Source of the DNA: a virus | Length of the DNA: 64,000 nt | IMG/VR virus record: IMGVR_UViG_3300026521_000148 | Coordinates: 16,351 to 80,350 of that record | Direction: 5' to 3' (one strand) | Shown here: one piece after another, positions 9,147-52,227 of the stretch | Layout of the letters: the number at the start of each line of letters is the position of its first letter | Position numbering within the stretch: the first letter of the stretch is position 1 | Translations under genes and position numbers: made by a program | The notes under the pieces: generated by a model | The model's input: only the letters and a program-made list of their open reading frames with translations | Told to the model about the DNA's origin: nothing | Database searches by the model: none

Positions 9147-9162
9147 AAATAAAAAAAGAATG

Positions 9163-10301: not shown

Positions 10302-10311
10302 ATAAAACTCC

Positions 10312-10908: not shown

Positions 10909-10928
10909 AACTTACCTCCTATTTATGT

Positions 10929-11378: not shown

Positions 11379-11434
11379 TACGGTGCCTTAATCTGGTGTT
11401 TTCAATGAAGAAATTATATTAAAGGAATTATTTT

Positions 11435-12672: not shown

Positions 12673-12673
12673 T

Positions 12674-20938: not shown

Positions 20939-20966
20939 ATGTATGGTGGGACATCCCACCATACAT
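20939..20966. terminator. Palindromic terminator
   Basis: Arms ATGTATGGTGGG and complement with a 4-nt loop, touching the stop codon of the last exon of the RNAP beta-prime gene. Confidence 0.72.
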
Positions 20967-24933: not shown

Positions 24934-26028
24934 ATTCCTGTTACCCAATACAGCGATACCTTTACCTTTAGCTTCACGTATTAGTTCATCACCTATATCT
25001 GCTATCTCTTGGTCGAACATAAGAGTAGCGTTAAACACCTTAGCAGATGCTTGTTTATAAGTATAACCTCTTCTTTTAAGTTTGTTAAGAACATGCGGTC
25101 TAAATGTTGTTGTTAGTATGGACCATGGGACATGTATAGTGTCATAATCATATTCCCTACCTAATGAAGAAACAACACATCTAAATGTAAAATGAGCTCT
25201 TGTACCATAAATATTCTTACGGATAAGACCGCCTTTTCTAGACACGAGATCTTTAACATAGTTAGTAAATAACTCTGCTGATTTACTTATGATCTTAGCT
25301 GTGTTAGTTTCTAACCGTTTATTTGTCATAGTGATATCGTTAGACGTATTGATAGCTAATAATGCTAAGTCTATGATATCAGATAGTAAAACAGATGTGT
25401 AGTTACCCTTATTAGTTGTTTCCATAACAAACAACTTTTTGTTAATAAGAGGTATGTGGTCTGAAAAGATTTTATCATGATCTTCTCTATATAACTTAAG
25501 TAATGCATCTAGCTTAACTTGTTTAGTTAATGTTTTATAATATGCATTATTCTTAAGAAATATGATGATCTTCTCTAAATTGTTAACAACATTAAGATAA
25601 CTTCTACCGCCTATGATCTCTTTTAAAGATAATAGAACTATCGGTATAGATGGTGGGTTATAAGTTGTGTCTGATAACCATCTTAAACCATCTACTTTAG
25701 TATTAATAGTTCTCGATAAATCAGCCCAAAACTTAGGGTTAATAAATACCAACTCTTTTCTAAACTTCTCTACCCACAATATAGGCTCCACTGAGTCGAA
25801 TACGTTAACAACAGTTGTGTCGCATCTAGGACATGTTCTACCCAACAGGTAGGCTTTCTTATAATAACCGCACTCACACTGAGGTATCATAGAGATCTCA
25901 TCGTCATACGTTGTATAGATAAGATCTTTGATATTATCAGTACTGAGTGAAATATCATTAAGTAATAGTTTCCTATTAACCCTTTGATATAAGTCATCTA
26001 GTTGTATATAACTTTGTACAATAGCCAT
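24934..26028 (-). CDS. RNA polymerase beta-prime N-terminal half (non-virion type), exon 1 of 4
   Basis: Exon 1 gives 365 residues; with exons 2-4 (23134-23247, 21807-21818, 20966-21178) the product is 477 residues. A zinc finger at C51/C53/C66/C69 (CECGYYKKAYLLGRTCPRC) matches beta-prime. LIRKNIYGTRAHFTFRCVVS corresponds to FRQNLLGKRVDYSGRSVI near the lid/rudder, and GNRN leads into the active-site segment. This is a phage multisubunit RNAP fragment; its C-terminal partner may be 57187-58443. Unspliced reading adds ten intron codons and stops at 24901. Confidence 0.88.
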
Positions 26029-33548: not shown

Positions 33549-35483
33549 TCACTTTATTAAAGTTAATAGTTCTTCATAAGTGAGTATCTTTTTATTAAGT
33601 AGTTTAGCTTTATTTAGTTTACTACCGGGACTTTCACCATATACTAACATAGTGGTATCTTTCGTAACTGAACTAACTATATCCCCACCACTATCCTCTA
33701 TTATCTTTTTAACTTTAGATTTACCATTAGGGAAGCTGCCTGTTAAAACTATCTTCTCCCCAGATAACTTACCAACTGTATTAGACTTTACTTTTAAATT
33801 AAGAATTTGTTTAAATTCACTTATCATGTTCTTATGTTTATGCATATAGTTATCAAATGCTTCAGCTATCTCCTCACCTATGCCATCCTCTTTCATAAGT
33901 TCTTCTTTAGTAAAGTTTAGTAAATCCATACCGTATTTAGCTGTTAATCTTTTAGCTAATGTCCTACCGAAGTTAGGGATACCTAAAGCAGCTATAAACC
34001 TATCTAATTCTACATCTTTACTAGTATCTATAGATTTAAGGAGTTTATCGACTCCTTTCATAGTGAACCCACCTACTGAATAAACATCATCTGGTTGTAA
34101 TTTATATATATCTACTAAAGATTTTATATAACCAGCATCTACTAATTTATTTATAACACTAGGTCCAAGTCCATCTATATTCATATAGTCTCTACCTACA
34201 AAATGCATAATCTTTCTACCTATACGAGAAGGACATTCTTCGTTAGGACATTTTATATAAGTATCCTCTTTAATAACACCTGTACCACACGTAGGGCAAT
34301 GTTCTGGTTCTTTAACTACTTTAACTGTATCATCTCTCCTTTCTTTAAATACATGTGTTATCTTTGGTATGATGTCACCAGACTTTATAAGTATAATGTA
34401 ATCATTTATACGTATATCCTTTCTTTTTATCTCTTGGTAATTATGTAATGTCACTCTGGATACAACTGACCCATCTATAAGCGTTGGTTCTAATATAGCT
34501 ACTGGTGTTATAATGCCTGTTCTACCTACTTGTGTTTTAATATCTATGATCTTAGTAGTCTTCTCTACTGGTTCAAATTTCATAGCTACTGACCATTTAG
34601 GATATTTAACGGTATAGCCTATTTTATCATGCATAGTAGTTTTATTTACCTTAAATACGACGCCATCTAGTCCATAATTGTAACTATCCCTCTTATTAGT
34701 ATATTTACTAACAACTTCTTCTAATAGATCGGGTCTACATACAAACATTTGTTCAGCTGCTTTAAAATTAAGGTTCTTTAATATCTCATTACCTTCCTGT
34801 AATGACTCTATGTCGCTATCCTTTAACTCCCATGCTAAAAACTCTAATCCCCTTTCTTTAACAACTCTACTATCTAAACTTCTAATAGCGCCAGCTGCAG
34901 CATTTCTAGGGTTAGCTAATAATGCCTCCCCGTTATTTTCACGTTTCTTATTAATTATATCAAACCTCTTCTTAGACATAACAACCTCACCATTTACTAT
35001 AATCTTTCTCTTTAAAGATATTGTTAATGGTATATTTCCTATATATTTAGCATTACTAAAAACATCTTCACCTATGAGTCCATTACCTCTAGTTATAGCA
35101 TGTTTTAACTCACCATCTTCATAAACTAAACTTAACGTTAGTCCATCATACTTTGGTTCAGCTATTAGACATAATCTACCATATTTATCTATAATGTTTT
35201 CGTACCATTTAACAAAATCATCTATAGTAAATATATCTTGTTGTGAGTATAATCTTATCTCATGCTCTAATTTCTTAAAACTACTAGCAACTTCATACCC
35301 GACCTTTTGAGTAGGTGATAATGGATGGATAAAATTATGTTTAAGTTCGTACTCTTTTAACTCTTTCATAAGGTTATCATATTCATCATCACTTGCTAAT
35401 AGTGTATCAGAATTATAATATGCGTCAGAAAGCTTTTTAAGGTACCTTATAGCCTCTGAATATTCTTCCCTAGTAGATATCAT
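33549..35483 (-). CDS. ligA: NAD-dependent DNA ligase
   Basis: Full-length LigA (644 residues) sealing nicks with NAD. Adenylation-domain lysine K111 in EPKYDGL is preceded by the Ia domain (YYNSD...DDEYDNL). The OB fold follows, then a four-Cys zinc finger (CPTCGTG ... CPNEECPS), helix-hairpin-helix repeats and a BRCT domain at the C-terminus (EKIVLTGSFPNGKSK ... EELLTLIK). Start overlaps the preceding stop (ATGA) with GGGAGGA upstream. NAD-dependent ligase is typical of bacteria and some jumbo phages; T4-type phages use ATP ligase. Confidence 0.93.
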   Translation of the reverse strand: MISTREEYSEAIRYLKKLSDAYYNSDTLLASDDEYDNLMKELKEYELKHNFIHPLSPTQKVGYEVASSFKKLEHEIRLYSQQDIFTIDDFVKWYENIIDKYGRLCLIAEPKYDGLTLSLVYEDGELKHAITRGNGLIGEDVFSNAKYIGNIPLTISLKRKIIVNGEVVMSKKRFDIINKKRENNGEALLANPRNAAAGAIRSLDSRVVKERGLEFLAWELKDSDIESLQEGNEILKNLNFKAAEQMFVCRPDLLEEVVSKYTNKRDSYNYGLDGVVFKVNKTTMHDKIGYTVKYPKWSVAMKFEPVEKTTKIIDIKTQVGRTGIITPVAILEPTLIDGSVVSRVTLHNYQEIKRKDIRINDYIILIKSGDIIPKITHVFKERRDDTVKVVKEPEHCPTCGTGVIKEDTYIKCPNEECPSRIGRKIMHFVGRDYMNIDGLGPSVINKLVDAGYIKSLVDIYKLQPDDVYSVGGFTMKGVDKLLKSIDTSKDVELDRFIAALGIPNFGRTLAKRLTAKYGMDLLNFTKEELMKEDGIGEEIAEAFDNYMHKHKNMISEFKQILNLKVKSNTVGKLSGEKIVLTGSFPNGKSKVKKIIEDSGGDIVSSVTKDTTMLVYGESPGSKLNKAKLLNKKILTYEELLTLIK

Positions 35484-35937: not shown

Positions 35938-37128
35938 ATGAGTGAAAAGAACACAAATAGTGGTAGTAATAAATGTTTATTATATAGCGATAAACTTATA
36001 AAATTTATAGATGAACCGATGTTCTTTGGTAGCGGTAAGAACACGCAACGTTATGACGAAATGAAATACGAGTGGTTCGACAAGAATAATAATAAACAAC
36101 AGGGGCATGACTGGGCATGGGATGAGATAACTAGTTCTGGTGATATCGTAGACCATGAACAGAAGCTTAGCGATGCTATGCGTTTTGTAACTAAGAAAGG
36201 ATTACAGAGGGCTATCTTCTTAGATAGCGTTAACGGTCGTGGTCCAGTGTTAATGTTTGGACAAGTAACAACTATACCTGAACTAGAAGCTGTTATAACA
36301 ACATGGCAGCACTTCGAAGTTAATAAACATAGTAGAACTTATACAAAACACTTAAGAGCTTTGTATACTAACCCAGGTGAAGTGTTCGATGAGTCATTCA
36401 CAGATCCTAATCTAACTAAGATAGCTAACTCTATCGCTGGTCCATATAATGCTGCATATAAAGCTGTTATAGAGTATATCTATAAAACTCTATTCGATAT
36501 AGAGTTAACAGAAGAGGATATGCGTAGAATTAAATCAGCTTTCATCATGGCTTGGGTAGAAGTTAATATTTTAGAAGGCATAAGATTCTATCCTTTCTTT
36601 AGTACAGTATGGGCTTACAACCATACACATAAATACATGAATGAACTAACAGGTGATCTTATTTTTATCGCTAGAGATGAGAATGAACATCTTAAGTTAA
36701 CACAACATGTTATCCATAAACTAAAGATGTACGAGATGGAAGGATTTAAAGATATCTTTAAGTCACTTATACCAAAAATAAAAGAAAGATATTACACAGC
36801 TCTATTAGAAGAATTTGAATGGATAGATTATCTGTTTAGTAACGGCAGTTATGTAGGTATGAATGCTAAGATATGTAAAGCTTATGTTGTATATTTAACT
36901 ATAAGAAGAATGCGTGCTATAGGCATAGAGCCTGATGTTGATAGAATAGGAGGAGTTCTTATAGAAGATAACCCTATCCCTTGGACAGAAGATTATATCG
37001 TTAATGATGATGAAGAGAAGTTACCTCAGGAAGAGAACGTTCTTAATTATATAGTTAATGCAGTTAACGATGATCTAACTCCTTCGAAAAGAAAAGAGTT
37101 ATTAACAACATATTTAAAAAATCTATAA
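35938..37128 (+). CDS. nrdB: Ribonucleotide reductase class Ia, small (radical) subunit
   Basis: 396 residues. Iron ligands and radical site are visible: D in FLDSVNGRGP, E in WQHFEVNKHSRTY with H and the putative radical Tyr, E in NILEGIRFYPF, and E plus H in ARDENEHLK. Makes the tyrosyl radical used by NrdA to make deoxynucleotides. In the first E...H pair there are three residues between ligands instead of the usual two. AAAAGGAT before the ATG; followed 9 nt later by nrdA. Confidence 0.9.
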   Translation: MSEKNTNSGSNKCLLYSDKLIKFIDEPMFFGSGKNTQRYDEMKYEWFDKNNNKQQGHDWAWDEITSSGDIVDHEQKLSDAMRFVTKKGLQRAIFLDSVNGRGPVLMFGQVTTIPELEAVITTWQHFEVNKHSRTYTKHLRALYTNPGEVFDESFTDPNLTKIANSIAGPYNAAYKAVIEYIYKTLFDIELTEEDMRRIKSAFIMAWVEVNILEGIRFYPFFSTVWAYNHTHKYMNELTGDLIFIARDENEHLKLTQHVIHKLKMYEMEGFKDIFKSLIPKIKERYYTALLEEFEWIDYLFSNGSYVGMNAKICKAYVVYLTIRRMRAIGIEPDVDRIGGVLIEDNPIPWTEDYIVNDDEEKLPQEENVLNYIVNAVNDDLTPSKRKELLTTYLKNL

Positions 37129-37137
37129 GGAGAAAAG

Positions 37138-40100
37138 ATGAGTCAAATTTTAATAAAGAAACGTAGCGGCGTAATGGAACCACTTGACGATGAGAAATAT
37201 CACCAGCATGTAGAGGAAGCAGTTAAAGGTATAAAGGGTGTATCAGCATCGCAAATAGAGATGGACGCAGCTATGAATATAGTCGACGGTATGCGCTCTA
37301 CAGAGATACAACACGCATTGATCATGTCGGCTAGTAATAAGATACCAACTGACCCAAGATACAACAAACCGGCAGCTAGGCTACTTAACCAAGATTTAAG
37401 AAAAAGAGTTTATGGTGATTATAAACCAGATGATTTTGTTAAACATATCGTTGGTAATATCGAAAATGGTGTATATGATAAATCCTATTTAGAAGAGAAC
37501 TACACTGATGATGAGTTTAAAGAGTTATTGTCTATCATAGATTATGATAAAGATGATAAGTTCACATATTCTGGTTTAAAGAAAAATACTGATGGGTATT
37601 TGATAAAGCGTTATGGAGAGATAAAAGAAACTCCTCAAGAATCATACATCATGATAGCTATATTCGCATTTGCTAAGTATAAAGAAAAATATGATGTAGA
37701 AACAAGAGCATATTGGGTTAAAGAGTTATATACAGCATTAAGTGATTTTGAGATAAGTCTACCTACACCTATCATGGGTAAACTAAGAACAACTTTTAGA
37801 AACTTTATAAGTTGTGTACTTATTCCATTAGGAGATACGAAAAGAAGTATAGCTAACGCATTCTCTACTATATTAACTGTTGTTGCATCTGGTGCCGGTA
37901 TTGGGTTAGGCGGGTACGATATCCGTGGCCAAGGTGCTGATATAGATGATGGTAGAATGCAACATGTTGGTACATTCCCTATTATTAAAGCCAGTGAAAA
38001 AACTACTAAAGCTTTTGTACAACCAGATAGAGACGGTAGCACTACTGTATTCTATGCTTTTTACAATGTAGAGATCTTGAAGATGATGACATGGGGTAAT
38101 GCTAAAGGTACTGATGATACAAGAGCTAGAGATCTAGACCATGCCATTAACTTTAATAAGTTATTCTTCGAGAGATTAAGAGATGGTAAAGATATAACAT
38201 TATTTTTTACAAATGATGTACCTATGCTTAAAACATGTCTTGGTGATTTTAAAACTTTTAAAAGATTTTACGAACAATATGAAAATACTGTTCCTGTAGA
38301 AAGACAAACTAAGGTACCTGCAGAGGTTATATTCGATAATTTTATAGATGAACGCGTGTTACAGTCTAGAGAGTATGCCGCTTTCATGGATGCGGTGCAA
38401 ATGCATGGTGGTTATGATGTACCTATTAATCAGTTAAACCTTTGCGTTGTTGGTAGTACAGAAATATTAACAAAAGAGTATGGTAACATAGAAATAGGTA
38501 AATTAGTTAATGATATGGGAGTTACTAGTACGGAATGCTGGAATGGTGAGGAGTGGTCACAAACAGAATTATTTAAAACAAGTGACGGTCAAAAAGTTTG
38601 GACTATCATACTCAGTAACGGTGTTAAGCTGGAGGTAACGCCATACCATAAATGGTATGTTAAGAAAGATCCTAATAAGTACGATAGTCCGATAATCGAA
38701 AAAAGAACACACGAGTTACTAATAGGTGATAAACTAGAAAAATTCCTATTACCAGATGATGTCAAATTTGGCGATAAACTGATATTAAATCCCTATACAT
38801 CTGGTTTCTTCACATCTGATGGAACCGATTTAGGGCAAAATAAACGCATCCGTCTGTATAACGAAAAAACAAATTTATTAGATAAGTTATTTAAGAAGAT
38901 TAGGTATAAACGTTTTTTTAAAGCTAACGAAAATAATAACTCAGTTATTGAGGTATATTATTCGTCTAACTATTTAGAGGATAAATTTTTTGTACCAACA
39001 TCAGAATATAGAAAATCTGATGTATTAAAATGGTTAGCTGGTGTGTTGGATGGCGATGGAACAGTACTTAACAATAACGGGGCTATGTCTATACAACTAG
39101 CGTCTGTTAATGAAGAGTACCTTACTAAGATACGCTTACTTTTAGTAAATTTCGGTATCGATGCGAAAATCTCGGTTTTTAATAACGAGCGCGTTGTTCC
39201 TCTACCAACGAATAAGGGCGATGGTAGTGCGAAATTATATAAATGTAAAAAGGCATGGCGCATTACTATACCTGGTAATGATGTTAATACGTTAATAAAA
39301 CACGGCATAAAACTACATAGATTAGATATAAGACACCATGACTATAATAGAGATGCTAGGAGTTTCGTGACAGTTAAAGCTATAATCGACGATGGTGGCA
39401 TTAGTGATACCTATTGCGGTACAGAACCTAAAAGAAATAAATTATTGTTCAATGGCGTTTTAACAGGTAACTGTAACGAGATCGCACAGCCGACATTTCC
39501 ACTTGAGTCTTTGTATAATATTAAAAGAAATATTAGATTTTATACAGAAGAAGATATGAAACACTATTATGAATTAAGACATCAGTTATTCTCGTTACAA
39601 TCTTACGAAAATAAGTTTTCTTACACTATAAGAAAACAGATGACTAGACACTTTGAGTTTGTTAATAGTGATCTCGGAGCTACTGTAGATGAAACTTTAC
39701 CTTATGATTATTTCGATCTATTAGGTCTACCTGTTATGGATGAAACAGGTGTTTGTATTATTGCTGGTATAAATATAGGACATGTTAAAGTGGAAAGGCT
39801 CCCTATAGTTTCTGAATTGTTAGTTAGGGTTCTTGATGAGCTTATTGACTATAACAAATATGAATCTTCATACATGGAGAAAGCTGCTAAGATGCGTAGG
39901 GGCATAGGTATAGGTTTTAGTGATGTATTTCACTTATTAGCTATTAATGAAGTTAAGTATAATACTAAAGATGGTATGGAGCTGATTAATGAAAGATGTG
40001 AGTTAGCTACCTACCATATGATAAAAACATCTATACAACTAGCAGAAGATTTTGGTCCTTGTTTATTAAGTTACGATAATAAGTATAGTAAAGGTATATT

Positions 40101-40692
40101 CCCTATAGATACGTATGAAAAGAATGTTGATGAGTTGGTGTCTAGATCACCATTAGGGTTAGATTGGGATGGTCTTAAAGTTAGAGCTAGAAAATCCGGT
40201 ACTAGACATAGCACACTATTCGCTAATGCGCCATATGGTAACTCTGCGATACCTTCAGGTAGTACATCTGGTATAGAGCCACCTAGAAGTCTTATCTATA
40301 AGAAACATGGTTTATATAATGTTGTTCCTGATTACGAAACACACAAAGATTTCTACACTACAGCATGGAGTGATGAATTTAACAATGCTGATTACTTTAA
40401 GTTTACAGCTGTTGTTCAGAAGTGGTGGGATCAAGCATTAAGTCTTAATGAGTATAGAAACTTATTAAAATACGTAGATGGTAAGATACCTAAATCAGAG
40501 TTAATGAGAGATATACTTATAGCTATGCATTATGGACATAAATCTATGTACTACCTTAATGTTAAGTCTAAAGAAAAAGATAAAGACGGAGATGGTGATG
40601 ATAGTCTGTATAAAGCAGATATAAAAGAAGAGATTATTATAGAAGATGAAGATGATAGCATAAGCTGTGAAAGTGGTAGCTGTTCTATTTAA
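37138..40692 (+). CDS. nrdA: Ribonucleotide reductase class Ia, large subunit, with intein
   Basis: The 1,184-residue precursor contains an ATP-cone at the N-terminus (about 1-95), the R1 barrel split by an intein at residues 436-778, the PYGNSAIPSGSTSGIEP segment and a C-terminal CESGSCSI cysteine pair for reduction. The mature protein would have 841 residues. The intein sits between Leu and Cys of the NLCNEI motif, so the radical-carrying Cys (E. coli C439) is the +1 extein residue. AAGGAGA before the ATG; co-transcribed with nrdB. Confidence 0.92.
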   Translation: MSQILIKKRSGVMEPLDDEKYHQHVEEAVKGIKGVSASQIEMDAAMNIVDGMRSTEIQHALIMSASNKIPTDPRYNKPAARLLNQDLRKRVYGDYKPDDFVKHIVGNIENGVYDKSYLEENYTDDEFKELLSIIDYDKDDKFTYSGLKKNTDGYLIKRYGEIKETPQESYIMIAIFAFAKYKEKYDVETRAYWVKELYTALSDFEISLPTPIMGKLRTTFRNFISCVLIPLGDTKRSIANAFSTILTVVASGAGIGLGGYDIRGQGADIDDGRMQHVGTFPIIKASEKTTKAFVQPDRDGSTTVFYAFYNVEILKMMTWGNAKGTDDTRARDLDHAINFNKLFFERLRDGKDITLFFTNDVPMLKTCLGDFKTFKRFYEQYENTVPVERQTKVPAEVIFDNFIDERVLQSREYAAFMDAVQMHGGYDVPINQLNLCVVGSTEILTKEYGNIEIGKLVNDMGVTSTECWNGEEWSQTELFKTSDGQKVWTIILSNGVKLEVTPYHKWYVKKDPNKYDSPIIEKRTHELLIGDKLEKFLLPDDVKFGDKLILNPYTSGFFTSDGTDLGQNKRIRLYNEKTNLLDKLFKKIRYKRFFKANENNNSVIEVYYSSNYLEDKFFVPTSEYRKSDVLKWLAGVLDGDGTVLNNNGAMSIQLASVNEEYLTKIRLLLVNFGIDAKISVFNNERVVPLPTNKGDGSAKLYKCKKAWRITIPGNDVNTLIKHGIKLHRLDIRHHDYNRDARSFVTVKAIIDDGGISDTYCGTEPKRNKLLFNGVLTGNCNEIAQPTFPLESLYNIKRNIRFYTEEDMKHYYELRHQLFSLQSYENKFSYTIRKQMTRHFEFVNSDLGATVDETLPYDYFDLLGLPVMDETGVCIIAGINIGHVKVERLPIVSELLVRVLDELIDYNKYESSYMEKAAKMRRGIGIGFSDVFHLLAINEVKYNTKDGMELINERCELATYHMIKTSIQLAEDFGPCLLSYDNKYSKGIFPIDTYEKNVDELVSRSPLGLDWDGLKVRARKSGTRHSTLFANAPYGNSAIPSGSTSGIEPPRSLIYKKHGLYNVVPDYETHKDFYTTAWSDEFNNADYFKFTAVVQKWWDQALSLNEYRNLLKYVDGKIPKSELMRDILIAMHYGHKSMYYLNVKSKEKDKDGDGDDSLYKADIKEEIIIEDEDDSISCESGSCSI
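38443..39471 (+). mobile_element. Intein with LAGLIDADG endonuclease in NrdA
   Basis: 343 residues from Cys (CVVGSTEI, block A) to GN before extein Cys (FNGVLTGN). Block B-like segment LEVTPYHKWYV holds the conserved T-x-x-H. LKWLAGVLDGDGTV is a LAGLIDADG motif; DTYCG and FNGVLTGN are the C-terminal splicing blocks. The penultimate residue is Gly rather than the usual His, which is tolerated in some inteins. Both splicing and homing functions look intact. Confidence 0.85.
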
Positions 40693-40702
40693 AAAAACAA
40701 TA

Positions 40703-40732
40703 CATAACTATGGACCATGGTCCATAGTTATG
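40703..40732. terminator. Bidirectional palindromic terminator
   Basis: A perfect 30-nt palindrome (CATAACTATGGACCA and complement) between the convergent nrdA gene and the outer-membrane barrel gene. Confidence 0.75.
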
Positions 40733-41944
40733 TTAAAATTTATATATAAAACCAATACTAAACGCAACCATATCTTCATAAGTAGCACTATATTCGTCTA
40801 TAGGTGATGTTTTAGGAACACCAAATATTTGTGTTGTTTTATTTGTTGTATTCTTATAATAACCAAACATAGCTTTAACCATGAAATCTTTTTTAATAGT
40901 TATTGTATCATACATTTTAAATGTGTACCCTAATGCACCACTATTGTTTATAGACAATGGGACACCAACAGTCATGTTGTCATAACCGGGAGATACATAT
41001 TTACCTTCGAACCCTAACCTCATACTGCGATGAAGTATAACATCATCAAATATCTTAGAATAACCTAATAATAGGGAATACCCGTGTGTTTCATATTTAC
41101 CAAAATAACTATTACTTGGAGGTGTTTCTATAAACTTGTTTAAAAGAGTACTATCCCCTTTTGTTTTAGACATAGAGCCTATGATATAAAATGTATCACC
41201 TATGGTTTCTAATCTATCATATACGAACTCTATGCCAACTAACTTTAGATCTTTAGTACCTGCGTCATAGAGTATCTCTTTATATGTATAATAATTAAAA
41301 TCCATACTTAATTTATCAGTTATATCACTCTTAATCAAAACAGTATATCCATAACTACCGTTAAATGCTTTCATAGTTTTTCTGTTATCGTATGTGTATT
41401 GATTAGTATCCATAACGTAAGCTGTATCTACGAACTCTCCTTTTGATATCCTACCACCAGTTATGATTGTATCTCTATCTCTCCATGTTAACAATAGTCC
41501 TTCTAACTCAAAATCTACTAAACCATATATACCTATACCGTTAGTACTATCATAAAGATCTGTGTTATTAAAACTACCTGTTTTAAAGTTTAATATACCT
41601 GTTGTTAAATATAGATTATTTATTAAATGTTTAGTATAATAGAAGTTCTCTACATTTATAACATCATAGTCACCTAACTGATGTTTATATTTATTATTGT
41701 AACCTGTACCGGTAACCCCTATGTAACTTATAGTACTAGCGATTTTATCTTTATCTATAAGTAATAGAGTGTTATTTCTAAGTACAGTTCTAACTAACGT
41801 ACCATTATCTCTATCGCCATCATCAATCGGGCTATTATAATAACCAACTGCTTTATCCATTAACAGATATGTATTACTCTTTATGTCGTCTAGTGCATGT
41901 AGACCACATATAACTACTAATAAACCTATTATAATGTTTTTCAT
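40733..41944 (-). CDS. Phage-encoded outer-membrane beta-barrel protein
   Basis: 403 residues. The signal peptide MKNIIIGLLVVICGLHA is followed by alternating amphipathic Tyr/Phe/Gly-rich beta strands to a C-terminal GFIYKF with terminal Phe, the sorting signal of outer-membrane barrels. It resembles the porin-like DUF3373 barrels common in Campylobacterota (from memory, not searched). Its start overlaps the preceding Cys-rich gene by 4 nt, tying it to the kinase/receiver operon. Possible roles: receptor masking, superinfection exclusion or nutrient uptake. The barrel call is good; the role is inference. Confidence 0.68.
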   Translation of the reverse strand: MKNIIIGLLVVICGLHALDDIKSNTYLLMDKAVGYYNSPIDDGDRDNGTLVRTVLRNNTLLLIDKDKIASTISYIGVTGTGYNNKYKHQLGDYDVINVENFYYTKHLINNLYLTTGILNFKTGSFNNTDLYDSTNGIGIYGLVDFELEGLLLTWRDRDTIITGGRISKGEFVDTAYVMDTNQYTYDNRKTMKAFNGSYGYTVLIKSDITDKLSMDFNYYTYKEILYDAGTKDLKLVGIEFVYDRLETIGDTFYIIGSMSKTKGDSTLLNKFIETPPSNSYFGKYETHGYSLLLGYSKIFDDVILHRSMRLGFEGKYVSPGYDNMTVGVPLSINNSGALGYTFKMYDTITIKKDFMVKAMFGYYKNTTNKTTQIFGVPKTSPIDEYSATYEDMVAFSIGFIYKF

Positions 41945-42258
41945 TTCTTATCCTTAAAGATATAGAACGAATTCGATCCCATGTCGGTATTTTCATCATG
42001 TGTTAAACAAAAACATGCTTCTTTCATAAGTTGTTCCTTTTTAACACCACAAACATAATAAGATAACTTATTATTATTACAAACTCGTTTCCAACTTACA
42101 ACTGTTTTTATGTCTGGATCTATACATAATTCATTAAGTACGTTAGTACACTTTTTCTTACTATACTTACAGCCTACATTTATAGTCGGCAGTATAGCAG
42201 GTTCAGCATGAAGTATGACAGATATAAACAAAACTATAGATGATATTTTCTTTATCAT
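41941..42258 (-). CDS. Secreted Cys-rich small protein, 105 aa
   Basis: Signal peptide MIKKISSIVLFISVILHA, then a mature domain of about 87 residues with seven Cys (for example CKYSKKKC, CIDP, EACFC) suggesting periplasmic disulphides. AAAAGGAACG before the ATG. Overlaps the histidine kinase gene and the barrel gene by 4 nt on each side. It could be a ligand or modulator of the kinase's periplasmic domain, which also has Cys pairs; that is inference. Confidence 0.6.
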   Translation of the reverse strand: MIKKISSIVLFISVILHAEPAILPTINVGCKYSKKKCTNVLNELCIDPDIKTVVSWKRVCNNNKLSYYVCGVKKEQLMKEACFCLTHDENTDMGSNSFYIFKDKK

Positions 42259-43577
42259 ACTCGTTCCTTTTTCTTTTCTACTACTTTAAATACTAATCTA
42301 AAGATGGTGCCTTGTTTAGTTGTTTTTAACACTTCAACACTACCTCCTATAGATTCTAACTCTTTTTTATTTATATACATACCTATACCCCTGAGTTTAC
42401 TACTCTTACCATCTCTAGCTATTTCACCGTTAGCTTTTTTAGTAGTGACGCCTTGCTCAAATATTATATTAGGATCTTTTACTATATTACCATGTTTATC
42501 TTGTATGCCTATACCGTTATCTACTAATAGCATCTCTACTACATTAGTATCTATCATTTTTAACATTATAGATAGCTTACTAGCTTTTGCTTCTTTACTA
42601 TTAACTATATGGTTTTTTAATATTCTACCTGTCTTACTATTCCCTAACTCCCTACAAGGCCTAAACCTTTTAGCTATATCCCTGCCCTTAACAATAGTGA
42701 CATCTATTTTCCTAACTGATAATGAATTAACAAAATTTGTTATAGTAGTTATTATCTCGTATATACTAGCTTCTGTTTCTTGGTACTTTAACTTCTTAGT
42801 ATTTGATATAGTATGTATAACTTCTTCTATTGTCTCTACTGCCATTATGCTGTTAGAGTACATATCGTCTATTTTAACTAGATCATAAGTTTTTTTATCA
42901 ACAAGCTCACATTCTGCTAAACAACTAGGTTTCTCTGTTAAGTGTTTATACATAGACGTTATTAAACTTTTTAATAGTGCTAGTGGTAAATTTATTTCAT
43001 GACCTATAGATTCACCAAGATCTCTCTGTAACGCTATCTCTAACTCTTCTTCTTTAGCTTTATCCCTTATATCTAAAATCTTTATACGTTCGTATTTATA
43101 TATAAAAAATGGTATAGTGAAAAAAAGAAATAGAAAAAAATAGTTAATAATCATTAACGTATTAACAGAATCAAAATACGCTGAATCATCTACTATTATT
43201 CTATTACCTTTAAACTCTATAACTGTATCATAATCTTCATTAAACACATTACAAAATAAAGGTTCAAACTTACTTATATCAACGGTATCTCTTCGTAAGA
43301 TACCGTTGATACTTTTATAAGTCACGCCATTACTACTCTCTAATTTATCGCATGTTACTGTGTTGCATATGAGATTAAGATCCACTCCATTAAGTCTATC
43401 AACGGTTTCTAATCGTGTATAATATTTTTCTAAAGATGTCTTATATGTACTATACATAGTTATAACATTAAATAACGTTATAGTAACTAAGACTATGAAA
43501 CCTAACTTTATATATTCTTTACCTGTTTCTTTAGTTAAAACTCTATTAAGAATATCTTTATTAATATTAAACATCAT
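42255..43577 (-). CDS. Membrane histidine kinase
   Basis: 440 residues. TM1 about 25-45, periplasmic domain 46-138 with C71, C76 and C109, TM2 about 139-160. The H-box SIGHEINLPLALL has phospho-acceptor H193. The ATPase domain has an N-box-like NHIVNSKEA (N326), G1 DNGIGI (353-358), F-box IFEQGVTTK (372-380), G2 RGIGMYI (396-402) and GTIFRLVF. All catalytic boxes look intact. The start overlaps the receiver stop (TAATG). Intact sensor kinases are rare in phages; here it likely signals to the adjacent receiver. Confidence 0.85.
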   Translation of the reverse strand: MMFNINKDILNRVLTKETGKEYIKLGFIVLVTITLFNVITMYSTYKTSLEKYYTRLETVDRLNGVDLNLICNTVTCDKLESSNGVTYKSINGILRRDTVDISKFEPLFCNVFNEDYDTVIEFKGNRIIVDDSAYFDSVNTLMIINYFFLFLFFTIPFFIYKYERIKILDIRDKAKEEELEIALQRDLGESIGHEINLPLALLKSLITSMYKHLTEKPSCLAECELVDKKTYDLVKIDDMYSNSIMAVETIEEVIHTISNTKKLKYQETEASIYEIITTITNFVNSLSVRKIDVTIVKGRDIAKRFRPCRELGNSKTGRILKNHIVNSKEAKASKLSIMLKMIDTNVVEMLLVDNGIGIQDKHGNIVKDPNIIFEQGVTTKKANGEIARDGKSSKLRGIGMYINKKELESIGGSVEVLKTTKQGTIFRLVFKVVEKKKERV

Positions 43578-44203
43578 TAATCCTTATATAATAACTCATA
43601 GATGCGCTTATATCTTTCTGAGTTTTTATTAAGATAATAGTTACTAAAGTTTAAACCTGTAGCATCCTCAAATTTCTTAAAGAAAAAACCAACTGTGGGG
43701 TTCTTCTTATTAAGAGTGTGGGCTGTACAAAATATAAATTTAAGATCAGGATTTCTTTTATATAACTCTAAAAATACGTCTATACCATCATACTCGACAT
43801 AATCACCATTAGTTAATTTAACACCATATCCTAATGTTATATCTAATATAGCGTAGTCAACATGTTCATAATTTTCGTGTATGAACTTATGCGCTATAAA
43901 ACCAGCTTTAGGTCCTAAACATGTTATTATATTAAAATCTTCATTAACGTCTTTATCATACACTCTTTTTATGTCTTTAAAATCTTCCCCATACAGATAC
44001 CACATATTTTGTATATCATCTAGTATTAATATGGTCTTACCATTCTCTACTCTAGATATACCAGGGTTACCGTATTTATCATAGTCTATACTTTCAACAC
44101 CATCTTGTATATCTGTTAGTAATTTATCCAATTCTTTATTATTATATTCTTTATTATTATCATTTTTTTCTTTTTTAAAAAATCTTTTAAATATGTTTAA
44201 CAT
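43577..44203 (-). CDS. Receiver-domain (response-regulator-like) protein
   Basis: 208 residues. A basic Asn/Lys-rich N-terminus of about 55 residues precedes a receiver fold: acidic pair D62-D63 in ILILDD, phospho-acceptor D121 in AILDITLG, T160 in FCTAH and conserved Lys at K193 in YLNKN. No separate DNA-binding output domain is present, so the output may be the N-terminal extension or protein-protein contact. Adjacent to the kinase with overlapping codons. AGGAGA before the ATG. Confidence 0.78.
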   Translation of the reverse strand: MLNIFKRFFKKEKNDNNKEYNNKELDKLLTDIQDGVESIDYDKYGNPGISRVENGKTILILDDIQNMWYLYGEDFKDIKRVYDKDVNEDFNIITCLGPKAGFIAHKFIHENYEHVDYAILDITLGYGVKLTNGDYVEYDGIDVFLELYKRNPDLKFIFCTAHTLNKKNPTVGFFFKKFEDATGLNFSNYYLNKNSERYKRIYELLYKD

Positions 44204-44213
44204 ATCGATTCTC

Positions 44214-44678
44214 CTATATAAGGTTAGTTAAGGCTTTTAGACCTAATGTTAATAAACTATGCATAGCTGAAACAGCCTTCTCAACAGCTACTGGTTCTAG
44301 ATGGTATAGTATAGTAAAAAATAAAGTTGTTGTAAAGACAACACTCATACCTTTTAAAGCATTCTTATATGTAAAAAGTTTAGCCTCTTTTTCCTCTTTA
44401 AGTTTTTCTACCTCTACTAACATTTCTTTGTATTTATTAAGTAGTGCCATATCTAGATCTATGATATGTATAAGTGACCTAACATGATGATGACGTATAG
44501 CTTGTAGCTCTGCTGTATAATTGTTAGTTAATAAAATAAGTATCTCTTTAAGCTCTCTATCTATAGAGTCCATAGCTATAAGTTTATTAACACTAGCATT
44601 CTCTTCCGTCCTAGATTCCATTGTTGTATTAAATATGTTTTCTTTTAATTCAAATAGTTTTTTATTTATATCTTCCAT
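44214..44678 (-). CDS. Coiled-coil protein with C-terminal membrane segment, 154 aa
   Basis: First gene of the signalling operon. An acidic coiled coil (about 1-105) is followed by one or two hydrophobic helices (about 108-125 and 138-154). AGGGAG before the ATG; stop codon overlaps the ribosome binding site of the receiver gene. It may be a membrane adaptor for the receiver, but no family is recognised. Confidence 0.55.
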   Translation of the reverse strand: MEDINKKLFELKENIFNTTMESRTEENASVNKLIAMDSIDRELKEILILLTNNYTAELQAIRHHHVRSLIHIIDLDMALLNKYKEMLVEVEKLKEEKEAKLFTYKNALKGMSVVFTTTLFFTILYHLEPVAVEKAVSAMHSLLTLGLKALTNLI

Positions 44679-44722
44679 GGTAACTCCCTATGCGTAAAAT
44701 CAAATAAATTAAAAGAAAAAAC

Positions 44723-44750
44723 TACTACTAGCCTAACTAGGCTAGTAGTA
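44723..44750. terminator. Palindromic terminator
   Basis: Arms TACTACTAGCCT and complement, 4-nt loop, with A-rich sequence on the left. It separates the gene ending at 44753 from the signalling operon. Confidence 0.7.
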
Positions 44751-44752
44751 TG

Positions 44753-45217
44753 TTAGTTTGCATCGCTGCGTTCATTTTTTTCAGTATTTACTGCTTCTTC
44801 ATCACCAGGAATACTAGCTGCTTCTGCGGCTGCCTTAGCTAAACCAGCAGGATTTATCTGTTCCATTTGTTTTTGGAACTCTTCACGTTTTTTACGTTCT
44901 TCTTCTGCTTGTTTACGAGACGCTTCAATCTCTTCAGCAGTAGGGAATGCTTGTTCAATCTTTTCAAACATTTGATCTTCAGTAAGACTATCTGCTAAAC
45001 TGATAACATTGTTGTAAGCTACTTCTAAACCTTTTGGCGTTTTAGCTAAAAGAACAACACTTACTTCATGACTTGTAATTGTTTCATCTTTTTCATAATC
45101 ACAAGTTAAAACATTTTCTTGTACCTGTACTTTAGCGATAAATACATTTTTATCTTCACCAGCTCTTTCTAAGAACGCTGTTACTTCTTCTAGTGCTTTT
45201 TGTTTTACATTTTCCAT
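44753..45217 (-). CDS. Unknown acidic protein, 154 aa
   Basis: N-terminal alpha/beta domain (about 1-90), then a Glu/Lys/Arg coiled coil (EEIEASRKQAEEERKK) and an Ala-rich, acidic tail. AAGGAAA before the ATG. Composition is less AT-biased than its neighbours, suggesting strong expression; possibly a scaffold or virion protein (inference). Confidence 0.55.
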   Translation of the reverse strand: MENVKQKALEEVTAFLERAGEDKNVFIAKVQVQENVLTCDYEKDETITSHEVSVVLLAKTPKGLEVAYNNVISLADSLTEDQMFEKIEQAFPTAEEIEASRKQAEEERKKREEFQKQMEQINPAGLAKAAAEAASIPGDEEAVNTEKNERSDAN

Positions 45218-45353: not shown

Positions 45354-45377
45354 ACTAACAGGTATTAACCTGTTAGT
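45354..45377. terminator. Palindromic terminator
   Basis: Arms ACTAACAGGT and complement, 4-nt loop, overlapping the 3' end of the gene at 45373. Confidence 0.65.
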
Positions 45378-45771
45378 CTACTAATGTCGCAATGTTATAC
45401 ATAGCTGCTTCTAGCCCTATACCTATATCACCTATTTTAATATCTCTCCAATTATTATCATTATCTTTCCATTGGATAGTTTTATTATAAACAGCATCAT
45501 AAGCATCATTAAATGCTACCCCACCTCTAACTGCTTCATTAACTTTAAAATTAGCTAACGCTAGTATAGAACTCATAAAATTGATACTACCTTCATCAGC
45601 ATCAAATACATTACCATTAAGTTCTATAGTAGCTGTTCTTATCTTATACTTTTTCCTAGCTTTACTATTTTCAACAGCAGCTGGTTCTAAGATAGGTGTT
45701 ATTTTAGCTTTACCATCTATAAACTCCATTCTGTGTCTTAATCTAGCTAGATTTAAATCTCTATTTTTCAT
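45373..45771 (-). CDS. Unknown phage protein, 132 aa
   Basis: AAAGGATT before the ATG. Soluble alpha/beta protein with RxRHRMEFIDGKAKITPI near the N-terminus, reminiscent of DUF4376-type tail-fibre accessory proteins (weak resemblance). Last gene of the unit that begins upstream at the tail-fibre genes. Confidence 0.45.
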   Translation of the reverse strand: MKNRDLNLARLRHRMEFIDGKAKITPILEPAAVENSKARKKYKIRTATIELNGNVFDADEGSINFMSSILALANFKVNEAVRGGVAFNDAYDAVYNKTIQWKDNDNNWRDIKIGDIGIGLEAAMYNIATLVD

Positions 45772-45804
45772 AAGTAATCCTTTAAAATCTACGAGTGTTA
45801 ATAT

Positions 45805-46086
45805 TCACTTCAATTCATTCGCTTGTTGTTCGGGCTGTTTCTTTTTCACATAGTTTAATAAGAAATCAGTAACACCTGTATTTCTCAGTAATCTTTCACC
45901 GAACCAAAATACAATAATGACTATCATGATATCGCTTAACTTGTCTATATAAATATCTGGTAAATCATCGTGTTTAAAAAATGTGTATACATAAAGTATC
46001 GTGAATACATATGTTAAAACAGGTCTTATAGACGACTTTAATTTTAATACCCAATTAGGACTATAGTTATCTGTATTTAATTCCAT
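45805..46086 (-). CDS. Small membrane protein, 93 aa (holin-like)
   Basis: Two hydrophobic segments (about 18-35 and 46-63) with charged ends and a Lys/Gln-rich C-terminus (KKKQPEQQ). Start overlaps the papain-like gene by 10 nt. Size and topology fit a class II holin, but there is no family evidence. Confidence 0.45.
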   Translation of the reverse strand: MELNTDNYSPNWVLKLKSSIRPVLTYVFTILYVYTFFKHDDLPDIYIDKLSDIMIVIIVFWFGERLLRNTGVTDFLLNYVKKKQPEQQANELK

Positions 46087-46604
46087 GGTAATTTCCTTAG
46101 ATTTATTAATGGTTTATATTCAGCATATTTAACATTAGGATCTTTATAAATAGAAACTAAATTAAATAATAGGTTAGGTGATACACTAGAAGGCTCTAAG
46201 TACCACATAGGTTTATAGCCATCTATTTTTAATACGTTACTAGCTACTTCAGAACAGAACCACATATCACTTCTATCTTTAAACGGTAAAACAAAACCTA
46301 TTATACCAGCGTAGTCATATTTTTGATCTACTATAGATTCTAGGAATTCAACTATTACATCTTGATTATTTATAGGTACATGTACGTAATCGTATCTACT
46401 AGCATTTATATCATTTAGTATATGTTCATTTTTAACTACTTTACCCCTACCCTCTTTTGCTTCGTAACTAACATATTCACCATTTACTTTTAAAATTATT
46501 GCTACATGGCTATAAGGACCATTTGTCCAAGCTGCTATAAGCTTACTTGTAAAAGCAGTATCATTTACATCGGTTCTTCTAAATCCCAATATCATAGTAT
46601 CCAT
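46077..46604 (-). CDS. Permuted NlpC/P60 (YiiX/DUF830-like) papain-like hydrolase
   Basis: 175 residues with the permuted catalytic order: H33 in PYSHVAI, E48 in SYEAK and C117 in WFCSEV. This family cleaves amide bonds in peptidoglycan or lipids; no signal peptide is seen. It lies between two small membrane-protein genes (45805-46086 and 46607-46915), an arrangement like a lysis or envelope-modifying cassette. Role inferred. Confidence 0.62.
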   Translation of the reverse strand: MDTMILGFRRTDVNDTAFTSKLIAAWTNGPYSHVAIILKVNGEYVSYEAKEGRGKVVKNEHILNDINASRYDYVHVPINNQDVIVEFLESIVDQKYDYAGIIGFVLPFKDRSDMWFCSEVASNVLKIDGYKPMWYLEPSSVSPNLLFNLVSIYKDPNVKYAEYKPLINLRKLPWN

Positions 46605-46606
46605 AT

Positions 46607-46915
46607 CTAACCCCTAAATAATAAAAATAAAACAGTTAACGTTATCATAACTGCATTTTTAGATGTATATATGATATCTAATATATCAGGAGTATGTTTA
46701 CTTTTATTAAAATAGTCATATACCTCTTTACTAGTAGCTACTAATACTACTATAACTGTAGCTAAAATAAATATAGTAGCCATAGACATAGTAATAAAGA
46801 AAGAAACTAATGTTAACACTATAAGGCTTATAGTATATAAAACATCACCGTAATACGCATGTAATAACTTATCATTAGGGATAAATTCATTAAGTCTTTT
46901 TAAGATCTTCTCCAT
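46607..46915 (-). CDS. Small phage membrane protein, 102 aa
   Basis: About three hydrophobic helices between residues 22 and 100, preceded by NDKLLHAYYG and containing KEVYDYF and HTPDILDIIYT. This K-x-x-H...G/KE-x-YD/DxxDIxYT pattern is shared by a family of small phage and prophage membrane proteins of unknown function. AAAGGATT before the ATG; 2 nt before the papain-like gene. Confidence 0.55.
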   Translation of the reverse strand: MEKILKRLNEFIPNDKLLHAYYGDVLYTISLIVLTLVSFFITMSMATIFILATVIVVLVATSKEVYDYFNKSKHTPDILDIIYTSKNAVMITLTVLFLLFRG

Positions 46916-47925: not shown

Positions 47926-50421
47926 CTATTTTACAAAATATGGTAACCTAACAGATTTTTGACCGAATAGAATTACTTCGCCATTATCATCACGCATAGT
48001 TGCTGTTCTGCTAGCAGAAACATTAAATAATCCATTATCACCCCAGTCACCATTAGAGTTCTTCAGCTCGTTATATGTATATGTTAAATAAACTACCTTA
48101 TTTGTTTCAGATAAATAATCTCTAAATTTAACAAAAGGAGTTGCATAACCAGGCGCCATTATGACATCATGCGACGCTAAATAATTATAATTACCATTGT
48201 AGGAGTGTATGCCATTTAACTTCGTGCCTAATCTATTAAGATTAGATCCCCATGTTGACCACCAACTGGTGATACTGAGTTTATTTAAAAAATTCTGAAT
48301 TAACATTACACCGTTAGAAGGGTATCCCTCCATTGTAACATCATAACTATTGTTAATATTTAGAAAACGTCTATTAGTAGTCTCTTTTAGGAAATTAGTT
48401 TTCATTTTATAATACACTTTTACAACCATAAGATCAAGAGCTTCTTCTAAGCTGCTATAGCCTAACTTATCTAATGTTTTTTCTATGTTCCAAAAGAATC
48501 TATTATCCAATCTATCACAACTGTTATGGTAATATTTTGCTTCAGCATCAGATCCTCCTGCTGCATATGGGACCCATGTATCATCCTTAGCTTTAACTAA
48601 AAATTTCTCTATACCTAAACCCTTTCTACTAGCTTTAACACTAAGACGCATGTTATCATCTTCACCAAATAAACATATTCTGTTGTTATGATCATAACTC
48701 TCTACTTTAGCATCAACAGGCAGCATACTACCACCCTCTTCATCCACTAATAAAGGATAACCGCTTACACCATGTTCTAGCCACGTATCTGTATACCCAC
48801 CAACAGAACCATCGTCACCTAGATCTAACCATACAGCATCATCGCTAAAATCGATGTGACCATCAGTAGCATTCGCATCACCGTCAGTAGTGTTAGTATG
48901 TACATTACTTATAGTAGTGTCACTTAGGTATCTATAATAATGACCAGCATCACCATTATTGTTATCAGTATCAGTACATAGAACATAATCATTCTTAGTG
49001 AATGTTTGAGTTGTGTCTTCTGTAATATCAAGCTTGATACGATCAGCTAACTTACGCGGATCACCAACTATATCACAATGTGTAGATGTTCCATTGTTAA
49101 CAAAATCGTCCTCCATGATAAGGTAAATATCAAAAACATCATTCTCTAAAACATTAACATTAGGAACACGTTCCAAACTTGTTGTTCTATTCTCTACATT
49201 AATTTTACTAAGATGTAAACCATAAAAACTACTATCTTTGTTATACCAAATATGTTGTAAATAACTTATATCCCTAGTTCTTCTATTAATAAGGATGGCA
49301 TTTCTAACGTTTCTGTATTTTAAATAAAACGTACCTGTATCATATGGGATATTTAGATAATCCATAAGGAAATCATAACCATCTTCTTTTTTAAGAAAAA
49401 AATAATTGTCATTATTATTGGATCTAGCTCTAGATGTTAATCTAACTATTTTAGTAGTTTTTTCTTTACCACGGATCTCTCCTCTAAGAGCCTTTTGAGC
49501 ATACTCTTCTCTAAGTTCATCGTAGTTACGTTTATGAGCAGACATACGAAGATCTTCAACATCTCTTTCATTAACTTCATCTACATATAAACCATCTGGT
49601 CTACCAGACATAGCTGATTCGATAGTGCCTGTAACTTTATAAGTATCAGGGTTATCAGTACCATCATCAAGACTACTTAATCTACTTGCATTTGTAGGAT
49701 CTGTAATATCTATAGTAGCTATAAGATCGTGATCGAAACAATCTGCTAAACTAGTGATAGTTCCTTCAGGAGCTAGATAACTCATAACTGCAGCACCATC
49801 TACATAAACTCTTGCACAACCTTCAGGGTTGAATGTTTCGTGCCAGATGCCCGCATTACGTCTCTGTACTAGTGCTATAGGAAGCGCTACAACTTTTTTA
49901 CTAGCATTAGCCCAGCACCCTTTAACGTGTCCGCTACTATTATGATCGTATGTATATAGTGGATACCCACCATCGCGAAAATCACTACTGTAAGATGAAC
50001 TAACAGCACCCGACTTAACTTGCACTAGCATGGCACCAAAACCGATCGCACTGTAGCCGGCCCCAGGACTTATAGCGTTAATATATCTCCATTCGTTACC
50101 AAGACCTTTTACAACTCTGATACGATATCTAACTTGGATCCATTTTTCACCATCTCTATAGATGTTGTTATCTGGGTTATTAGCTAACTTGATTTTATCA
50201 GCTAAACTAAGTTCAGACCAAACGTAACCTTTACCAACTAACTCACCTGGCTCTTGCCAACCATCTGAGAATAAACTATATGTATCAGCACCCTCAAATA
50301 CACCATCAACTATACCTGATAGCCCATCTACATTACCGCCTCTATACTGCACATTCCCATAAGGATAAACTAATGAGAGTTCACCTTTATCTGTTATATC
50401 TTCATGCCATGCATTTGTATT
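47926..50421 (-). CDS. Large tail/fibre structural protein, exon 2
   Basis: This exon encodes 831 residues. Beginning at 50421 it reads NTNAWHEDITDKGEL then VYPYGNVQYRGG; joined to exon 1 (LELTTR) this gives a continuous D-LVFLE...W-HED...YP-GNVQY block seen in phage tail or fibre proteins. The rest is beta-rich, Asp/Asn/Tyr-rich with few Cys. A GTG at 50352 could be mistaken for the start, but the frame is open well upstream to the splice site. The spliced product has 1,273 residues. Confidence 0.7.
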   Translation of the reverse strand, partial: NTNAWHEDITDKGELSLVYPYGNVQYRGGNVDGLSGIVDGVFEGADTYSLFSDGWQEPGELVGKGYVWSELSLADKIKLANNPDNNIYRDGEKWIQVRYRIRVVKGLGNEWRYINAISPGAGYSAIGFGAMLVQVKSGAVSSSYSSDFRDGGYPLYTYDHNSSGHVKGCWANASKKVVALPIALVQRRNAGIWHETFNPEGCARVYVDGAAVMSYLAPEGTITSLADCFDHDLIATIDITDPTNASRLSSLDDGTDNPDTYKVTGTIESAMSGRPDGLYVDEVNERDVEDLRMSAHKRNYDELREEYAQKALRGEIRGKEKTTKIVRLTSRARSNNNDNYFFLKKEDGYDFLMDYLNIPYDTGTFYLKYRNVRNAILINRRTRDISYLQHIWYNKDSSFYGLHLSKINVENRTTSLERVPNVNVLENDVFDIYLIMEDDFVNNGTSTHCDIVGDPRKLADRIKLDITEDTTQTFTKNDYVLCTDTDNNNGDAGHYYRYLSDTTISNVHTNTTDGDANATDGHIDFSDDAVWLDLGDDGSVGGYTDTWLEHGVSGYPLLVDEEGGSMLPVDAKVESYDHNNRICLFGEDDNMRLSVKASRKGLGIEKFLVKAKDDTWVPYAAGGSDAEAKYYHNSCDRLDNRFFWNIEKTLDKLGYSSLEEALDLMVVKVYYKMKTNFLKETTNRRFLNINNSYDVTMEGYPSNGVMLIQNFLNKLSITSWWSTWGSNLNRLGTKLNGIHSYNGNYNYLASHDVIMAPGYATPFVKFRDYLSETNKVVYLTYTYNELKNSNGDWGDNGLFNVSASRTATMRDDNGEVILFGQKSVRLPYFVK

Positions 50422-50791
50422 CCATATAGATCGCTACTTCTATATGCGATTAGTTTCTTTATACTACTGTTAAGTAGAACTAATCAGCTATATGTCTCCA
50501 TATAGATTAGACTATATCTTCATCTCTTTATAAAAGATGCTTACCACTTCCACCCTCGATCGCTTAGAGCGTACTCCCTTTCGGGATAGTCGTTGAGGTT
50601 TACTCTTATATAAGAGTCTTACCTGCTGATTACCTCTATTTATAACATTTTAAGGGGTCGCTACTATGTCGCCATGTAGTATCCTAGTTATAACTTAACG
50701 AGTGTGTCCCAGCATTTCAATAAGTTTAAATACACATCACTGTGTAAGTGAACCATTTTCTTTTTATTTACTTGTGAGATCACGCGGCATA
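50422..50791 (-). ncRNA. Group I intron without ORF in the tail/fibre gene
   Basis: 370 nt. Minus-strand elements: P AAATGCTGGGA (about 50706-50722), Q AATCAGCAGG (about 50621-50631), R CTCAACGACTATCCCG (about 50583-50599) and S AAGATATAGTC (50510-50520). The 5' exon end CACGT pairs with guide GCGTG, closing with U-G at the splice site. The terminal G is 50422. There is no room for an endonuclease gene, so it is a minimal intron. Confidence 0.8.
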
Positions 50792-52117
50792 ACGTGTTGT
50801 TAATTCTAAGAACACAAGATCTTGTCTAGAAACTGAGTCTCTAGCTTCAAATTTAGGCGCATTTTCATAAACATCACCAACATTCGTATATCGTAATGCT
50901 ACGATAGGAGTTTCTTTTTTAAGTTTAACAGAAGTAACGTCGAAGTAAACTTTACCCGTTTCACCTGTATTGCTTAATAGATAAAGTCTCTCTTTACCAT
51001 CAGGTTTAAACTCAATTTTATGCTCTACGTACTCAGATGTTATAGCGTATTCTGTGTCATTATGGAATGTACCGTTATATGTTCTAATCATACCTTTTGT
51101 AAAATCATCTGACTTTACTTTAAATGTTATCTCATACACAGCATCTTGATCGCCGATATAGTCGAAATAATCGAACAACATGTAGTGTGAACCGTTAGTT
51201 GTTTCAAATTCGTAAATGTCGTCTGTTATACTAACTGTTGCATTACCGTCAGCATCACCGACCTCTACTAGATTAATATCTTTAACATCAAACAACTCTC
51301 TATCGAAATCAGCTAATACGGCCATATCACCTTGTTTCATGGCTGGAGCATTAGTGCTGTCTTTGATAACAGGAGGTACAGGGTTGTTAGGTAAATCAAT
51401 ACCAGAAAATTGTATAGGAAAAGTAGTATTTTTTAGCAATATCTTGTATCCATTAATATTAAAATAATTACCTTCTTGGCTTGGGTCAATATTTAAATAT
51501 AAATAACTTCCCCGTGGTTTTATGTTAGGGTGGCAGTTACTAGAGTCCTTACTATATAAATATACGTCCGCATGTCTCCATGTATACATGCCTCCATAAT
51601 TTAAATAGTCTAACCTATTATAGCCGTCATTAAATAAACTAATGAATCCACTACCAGCAAATTTTTCTCTGTTCATAGCAGCTAGTGCTTCGAACTGAGC
51701 TTTACTCATAACGTTAGTACTATCAACATCCATAGTTTCTTTATGTGCCAACTCTTTATTAGTAGTAACAGTAACATTCGTGCTAGTTACTCTATCATCA
51801 ACAACCTTGATAGCATCATCAACTTGATTTTTTGTATAATAATCATCGAACTTAGCTATAATAGCATCATTAAGTTCATCTACTTCACCTTGTTTGTAAT
51901 ACTCTTTAAGTATATCGTCTAACTCACTATCTGTAACACCATTTTCTTGTAACTCAGCTGTTACTTTAGCTACATTCGGAACAGTAGTTGATAATACTTC
52001 ACCGTCCTCGTTCATATATTCAAAAGTGACATCTGCAGCGTCACCATAAAAAAATTCTTGAAATTTACTTGCTAAGTTTATTAAAGTAAACGCAGCAACA
52101 CTACTAGCTATAGGCAT
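50792..52117 (-). CDS. Large tail/fibre structural protein, exon 1
   Basis: Encodes 442 residues from the ATG at 52117 (MPIASSVAAF), chosen for its AAGGAGTT site; an ATG 45 nt upstream is in frame but has no site. The N-terminus has a short hydrophobic helix, then a coiled-coil region (about 45-110) and beta-rich domains. It ends with SRQDLVFLELTTR at the intron. Without splicing the frame adds three codons and stops at 50780. Located with other fibre-module genes. Confidence 0.68.
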
Positions 52118-52227
52118 AGTAACTCCTTGTTTTTTATTTTGTATTATTGCTAATACATACATGTATGTACTAATATGTATCTTAGATACTTCCTCTAATC
52201 ATCTACTAGAGATAAAAAGAGGCATAG

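Follow-up and report, generated by a model that had tools for sequence, protein, structure and literature searches.

Can a phage carry a sensory system of its own that is tied to the envelope of the cell it infects? This question is raised by five genes on the minus strand of a 64,000-nucleotide stretch of viral DNA (the window, being the whole stretch analysed). The original prediction had assigned to them a coiled-coil membrane protein, a receiver, a membrane histidine kinase, an exported cysteine-rich protein and an outer-membrane barrel, and had proposed that together they form a phage programme that senses and remodels the envelope, for example to exclude other phages. Phages are usually regarded as running a largely fixed gene programme and, to our knowledge, complete sensor systems consisting of a kinase and a receiver are hardly known among them.

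Phage and genome record

The window belongs to a virus record of 80,350 bases, the RNA polymerase subunits and DNA polymerase of which were identified as those of the phiKZ group (phrog_2987, 2962, 2986, 3148, 3011). The DNA polymerase was matched by 279 phage records, and IMG/VR was found to hold five records with a DNA polymerase about 50% identical to it. Judged by these genes, the virus is a phiKZ-related jumbo phage with multisubunit phage RNA polymerases. Many related records are 180-320 kb in size, and the 80,350-base record is probably a genome fragment.

Layout of the operon

Five tightly packed ORFs were found on the minus strand at positions 40733-44678 of the window, with the overlapping or abutting frames that had been proposed for them (Table 1). 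In the 5’ to 3’ direction the first junction is a gap of 10 nt, and the next three are overlaps of 1, 4 and 4 nt. Each of the inner genes is preceded by a sequence resembling a ribosome binding site. The hairpins said to bound the operon are both present, in a region with 14 terminator-like sites compared to 3.2 in shuffled sequences. A search for long repeats flanking the operon found none, in agreement with the original prediction, and all residues that it had named in the receiver and the kinase were located. The observation as a whole was thus confirmed, and on this layout the five genes are predicted to constitute one intact, tightly coupled unit between terminator-like hairpins.

Table 1. 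Features of the operon and its borders, in window coordinates
Feature	Position	Strand	Description
P0005	44214..44678	-	154 aa; coiled-coil-like stretch and borderline membrane segment
P0002	43577..44203	-	208 aa; predicted divergent stand-alone receiver (residues about 56-195) without output domain
P0001	42255..43577	-	440 aa; predicted membrane histidine kinase
Likely extracytoplasmic sensor of P0001	43158..43454	-	residues 42-140, three Cys, between hydrophobic segments
P0004	41941..42258	-	105 aa; signal-peptide-like start, seven Cys, probably periplasmic
P0003	40733..41944	-	403 aa; probable outer-membrane protein, C-terminus FSIGFIYKF
Terminator-like hairpin past the 3’ end of the operon	40702..40733	-	14-pair stem, T-run on minus strand
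Terminator-like hairpin ending the upstream gene and dividing it from the operon	44723..44750	-	12-pair stem, TTTTTT tail
Non-early promoter-like motif TTGATTT	44697..44703	-	-25 of the first operon gene (P0005)

The histidine kinase and receiver

P0001 was found to possess a HATPase_c domain (PF02518; E 3.6e-7, 31 bits against a Pfam cut-off of 26.4), with the N, G1 and G2 boxes visible on alignment with bacterial kinases. The catalytic motifs were located at H193, NHIVN (322-326), DNGIGI (353), FEQG (373) and RGIGM (396). H193 lies within the sequence GHEINLPL, which corresponds to the HisKA pattern; Pfam HisKA itself gave no match at E 1. All nine NCBIfam matches were sensor kinases, the best of these being SapS-like and covering residues 184-434, a range that takes in the ATPase domain as well as the surroundings of H193. 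Hydrophobic peaks at residues 23-41 and 141-159 enclose a stretch of approximately 100 residues with three cysteines, likely to be an extracytoplasmic sensor. P0001 is thus predicted to be a membrane histidine kinase in which every catalytic box is present, as had been proposed. Weak matches (E about 1e-4) over residues 171-437 were obtained with phrog_857 and phrog_10912, the former being a generic kinase profile that also matched in all 14 control genomes. A tblastn search with P0001 produced zero matches in phages and zero in plasmids, and the predicted kinase is thus very divergent.

The receiver assignment of P0002 held in its residues and had mixed support from profiles, the Pfam match being weak (Response_reg, E 0.17, below the cut-off). 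The acidic pair D62/D63, phospho-Asp D121, Thr T160 and Lys K193 occupy the canonical receiver places; D121 is followed by an insert and K193 preceded by a long loop. Compared with a profile built from nine receivers of a single bacterial genome, P0002 reached an hhalign score of 33.1 (probability 64%), higher than each of 400 shuffles (maximum 26.0), and it stood apart from the other tested ORFs of the record. Its single-sequence structure model was too poor for use. No output domain follows the receiver part, and P0002 is accordingly described as a predicted divergent stand-alone receiver.

Exported and membrane proteins

Both P0003 and P0004 begin with a signal-peptide-like sequence ending in LHA. 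When 754 ORFs from the phage and five of its relatives were scored with a simple ad hoc rule for these signatures, P0003 was the only one to combine such a start with an outer-membrane C-terminal signature, its beta-signal closing with Phe. Both end signatures given in the original prediction therefore stood, and P0003 is a probable outer-membrane protein. Support for the barrel proposed with them was mixed: no family match was obtained for P0003 in Pfam, PHROG or NCBIfam, a simple strand-amphipathicity count was not above that of shuffles and the structure model (pLDDT 27) was useless. From the end signatures, we infer that P0003 may form a beta-barrel.

P0004 agrees with the exported protein that had been described, and its seven cysteines and signal-peptide-like start are those of a protein that is probably periplasmic. 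In the case of P0005, the coiled-coil-like stretch of the proposed coiled-coil membrane protein was identified, while the membrane segment is borderline (about residues 107-128, with a peak hydropathy of about 1.4-1.6). P0005 had no family match in Pfam, PHROG or NCBIfam.

Promoter-like motifs

The motif YTGAWWW was found at -32 to -15 of 11 of the 37 remaining gapped genes in this phage (mean 1.8 and maximum 7 in shuffles), virion genes among them, and before no start codon in a control window. It is likewise enriched in the two closest relatives and more weakly so in three that are more distant. A second motif class, TATATTATTA, is similar to the early promoter consensus AAATATATATTAT of phage AR9 (PMC5312081). 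The two classes, early-like and non-early (the latter about 25 bases ahead of the start), are nearly mutually exclusive. As the TTGATTT preceding the first gene of the operon fits the enriched motif, this suggests non-early transcription of the operon by the polymerase of the phage itself. According to a review, middle and late promoters of this phage group have not been found by bioinformatics (PMC7598289).

Genomic position and residence of the operon

The genes on either side of the operon, a lysis-like cassette (45373-46915) and ribonucleotide reductase (35938-40692), are conserved in the five relatives. The cassette includes a small membrane protein and a phrog_1128/weak CHAP-like protein, and its role in lysis is putative. 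Gene mapping identified no counterparts of the five operon genes in these five close relatives. In the relatives the matching slot carries other cargo, with look-alikes of ThyX, HNH endonuclease, aminopeptidase and acetyltransferase recognized by sequence inspection. The operon is thus predicted to occupy a variable cargo slot between the lysis-like cassette and ribonucleotide reductase. Assembly of the record as a chimera is unlikely, because the genes flanking the operon match relatives. Recent transfer of the operon was ruled out by its phage-typical codon usage: four of its genes reach or exceed the mean of the phage, which the HNH endonuclease genes at 22235 and 23344 do not.

Upstream of the operon, the gene at 44753-45217 (minus strand) encodes a charged protein of 154 aa without a counterpart in the five relatives and may be part of the cargo of the operon. 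Mapping likewise found no equivalent of an NAD-dependent DNA ligase (33549-35483, minus strand) in the five close relatives.

Group I intron, possible intein and split genes

A group I intron was identified at 50488-50775 on the minus strand (RF00028, 75 bits). The ORFs flanking it (47926-50352 and 50780-52162) match one protein of a relative, and the intron seems to divide what is otherwise one gene. Two HNH endonuclease genes lie between a pair of RNA polymerase beta-type fragments (20966-21193 and 24901-26028, minus strand) that match one ORF of a relative, indicating that mobile elements have broken up the gene. A further RNA polymerase subunit is divided into two ORFs at positions 8319-9452 and 9985-13092 of the record (-8031 to -6898 and -6365 to -3258 in window numbering), both parts matching one ORF of a relative; a search of the gap between them gave no Rfam intron. 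The large subunit of ribonucleotide reductase (37138-40692, plus strand) has 1184 aa compared to about 700-815 aa in relatives, and on inspection the extra stretch looks like an intein.

Searches for homologues and described systems

Searches of phages by tblastn with P0002 and P0003, like that with P0001, gave no homologue. Scans of IMG/VR with P0001, P0002, P0003 and P0005, with sub-ranges of these and with small alignments also gave none, although such scans rely on short exact peptides and can miss distant relatives. HATPase_c was absent from 50 phiKZ-like records, many of which may be incomplete, with detection of PF02518 in the record of the window serving as control. A further whole-record search of 50 phiKZ-like records, for which the match to the window’s own record was the sole control, gave no homologue of the operon genes. 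As no homologue was found for any of the five genes, neither the catalytic residues nor the gene order is backed by conservation. The one bacterial match was to a kinase in a Chitinophagaceae genome, without the other operon genes, and does not show an origin.

Kinase genes in phages are not unprecedented, as is seen from the PHROG families matching P0001 and from the agrC of phage phiCDHM1. A generic kinase query of the phage collection matched mostly unannotated or bacterial-looking records and thus yields no fair count of them. No described phage kinase-receiver pair tied to an outer-membrane protein was found in the literature searched, which lay outside most subscription journals, and within that scope the claim that the system is undescribed stands.

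Proposed mechanism and alternative explanations

We propose that this phiKZ-related phage bears a self-contained two-component operon tied to exported envelope proteins, which would sense the envelope and in which the receiver would act by protein contact; the probability of this reading is put at about 40%. The operon would be read by phage RNA polymerase after the early phase, and P0003 would be destined for the outer membrane, P0004 for the periplasm. P0001 would read the state of the envelope, perhaps via P0004 or P0003, and phosphorylate P0002, which would then bind a partner protein (such as the membrane-associated P0005 or host machinery) and not DNA. The net effect is guessed to be that the envelope of the infected cell is kept or changed, most simply by blocking other phages or by stabilising the envelope until lysis.

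The original interpretation was upheld in the anatomy of the operon, the kinase, the receiver and the exported proteins, including the probable outer-membrane protein. The term programme was not supported in its transcriptional sense. Genes of phiKZ-group phages are transcribed by the phage’s own RNA polymerases and P0002 lacks an output domain, so that signalling is probably by protein contact rather than through a transcription programme. Envelope sensing with exclusion of other phages is what we infer from the combination, and the foremost guess for its purpose is that it remodels the envelope or serves superinfection exclusion. A phage circuit in which its own kinase and receiver sense the envelope and its own outer-membrane and periplasmic proteins answer, independently of host transcription, is rather doubtful. 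A phage with a sensor kinase, receiver and envelope proteins in one unit could react during infection to conditions at the cell surface, possibly including attack by other phages and envelope stress. If the operon is a real circuit, it would offer a test bed for signalling without transcription output, since this phage group reads its genes with its own polymerases.

It is unlikely that P0001 and P0002 instead enter the two-component network of the host as a phosphate sink, decoy, donor or phosphatase, silencing envelope-stress or defence responses while the exported proteins serve a separate function within the operon. A receiver without an output domain would suit a sink or decoy, and phages do reach into host systems, given that host kinases are a target of the phage protein PIT4 (PMC10714779) and that AgrC of phiCDHM1 is without a phage regulator (PMC3901668). 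However, P0001 and P0002 are adjacent and overlap by 1 nt, as is often the case for cognate pairs, and the genes for the exported proteins overlap with them.

The adjoining conserved cassette could also mean that the operon works with it in the timing of lysis, following the state of the envelope and either delaying or triggering lysis. This is improbable: conservation of the cassette extends to relatives without the operon, a terminator stands between the two and the lysis role of the cassette is itself read from sequence.

Highly improbable, too, is that P0002 is a receiver-fold enzyme such as cRec, with the kinase acting on a host regulator. The weak receiver match of P0002 and the existence in jumbo phages of divergent Rec domains with another role (PMC7824862) are consistent with such an enzyme, but PF20274 (cREC_REC) had no match at E 1 anywhere in the record, by which identity with cRec was rejected, and cRec is reported never to occur with histidine kinases (PMC7824862), whereas the gene of P0002 overlaps that of a kinase. 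That the genes are passive cargo, taken from a host and unused in infection, would fit a variable slot with unrelated genes in relatives and an operon missing from all close relatives, but has a similarly small chance, as the intact state of all five frames, codon usage typical of the phage and the presence of terminators and a phage promoter-like motif point to long residence and use.

Comparison with known systems

The preferred reading of a self-contained two-component operon has its closest parallel in bacterial pairs of a HisKA-type kinase and a single-domain receiver, with which it shares the N, G1, F and G2 boxes and a predicted H box in a membrane kinase, the positions of the receiver Asp, Thr and Lys and genes that lie side by side. 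It differs from these in being encoded by a phiKZ-related phage and in including exported proteins in the unit, and P0002 is strongly divergent from bacterial single-domain receivers. Among phage protein families, phrog_857 and phrog_10912 resemble P0001 over the residues given above, by weak matches.

Temperate phages carry genes for outer-membrane proteins, such as lambda Lom and the PA-2 Lc porin, that can alter the surface of the infected cell. Their likeness to P0003 is by description only, and they belong to temperate phages and are not known to have a linked kinase and receiver.

Clostridioides difficile phage phiCDHM1 carries the agr3 genes agrD-agrB-agrC, with no response regulator in the phage (PMC3901668). 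Its AgrC is, like P0001, a phage-encoded histidine kinase with HATPase_c, but forms part of a quorum-sensing set without a regulator in a temperate phage of a Gram-positive host (PMC3901668). The cRec domains of jumbo phages, divergent Rec domains in which Asp residues are conserved, have a different role and are linked to NAD and RNA repair genes (PMC7824862); they resemble P0002 as a divergent receiver fold in jumbo phages and differ from it in reportedly having no kinase link. Compared to these systems, the operon is a variation on known two-component signalling, here phage-borne and joined to exported proteins.
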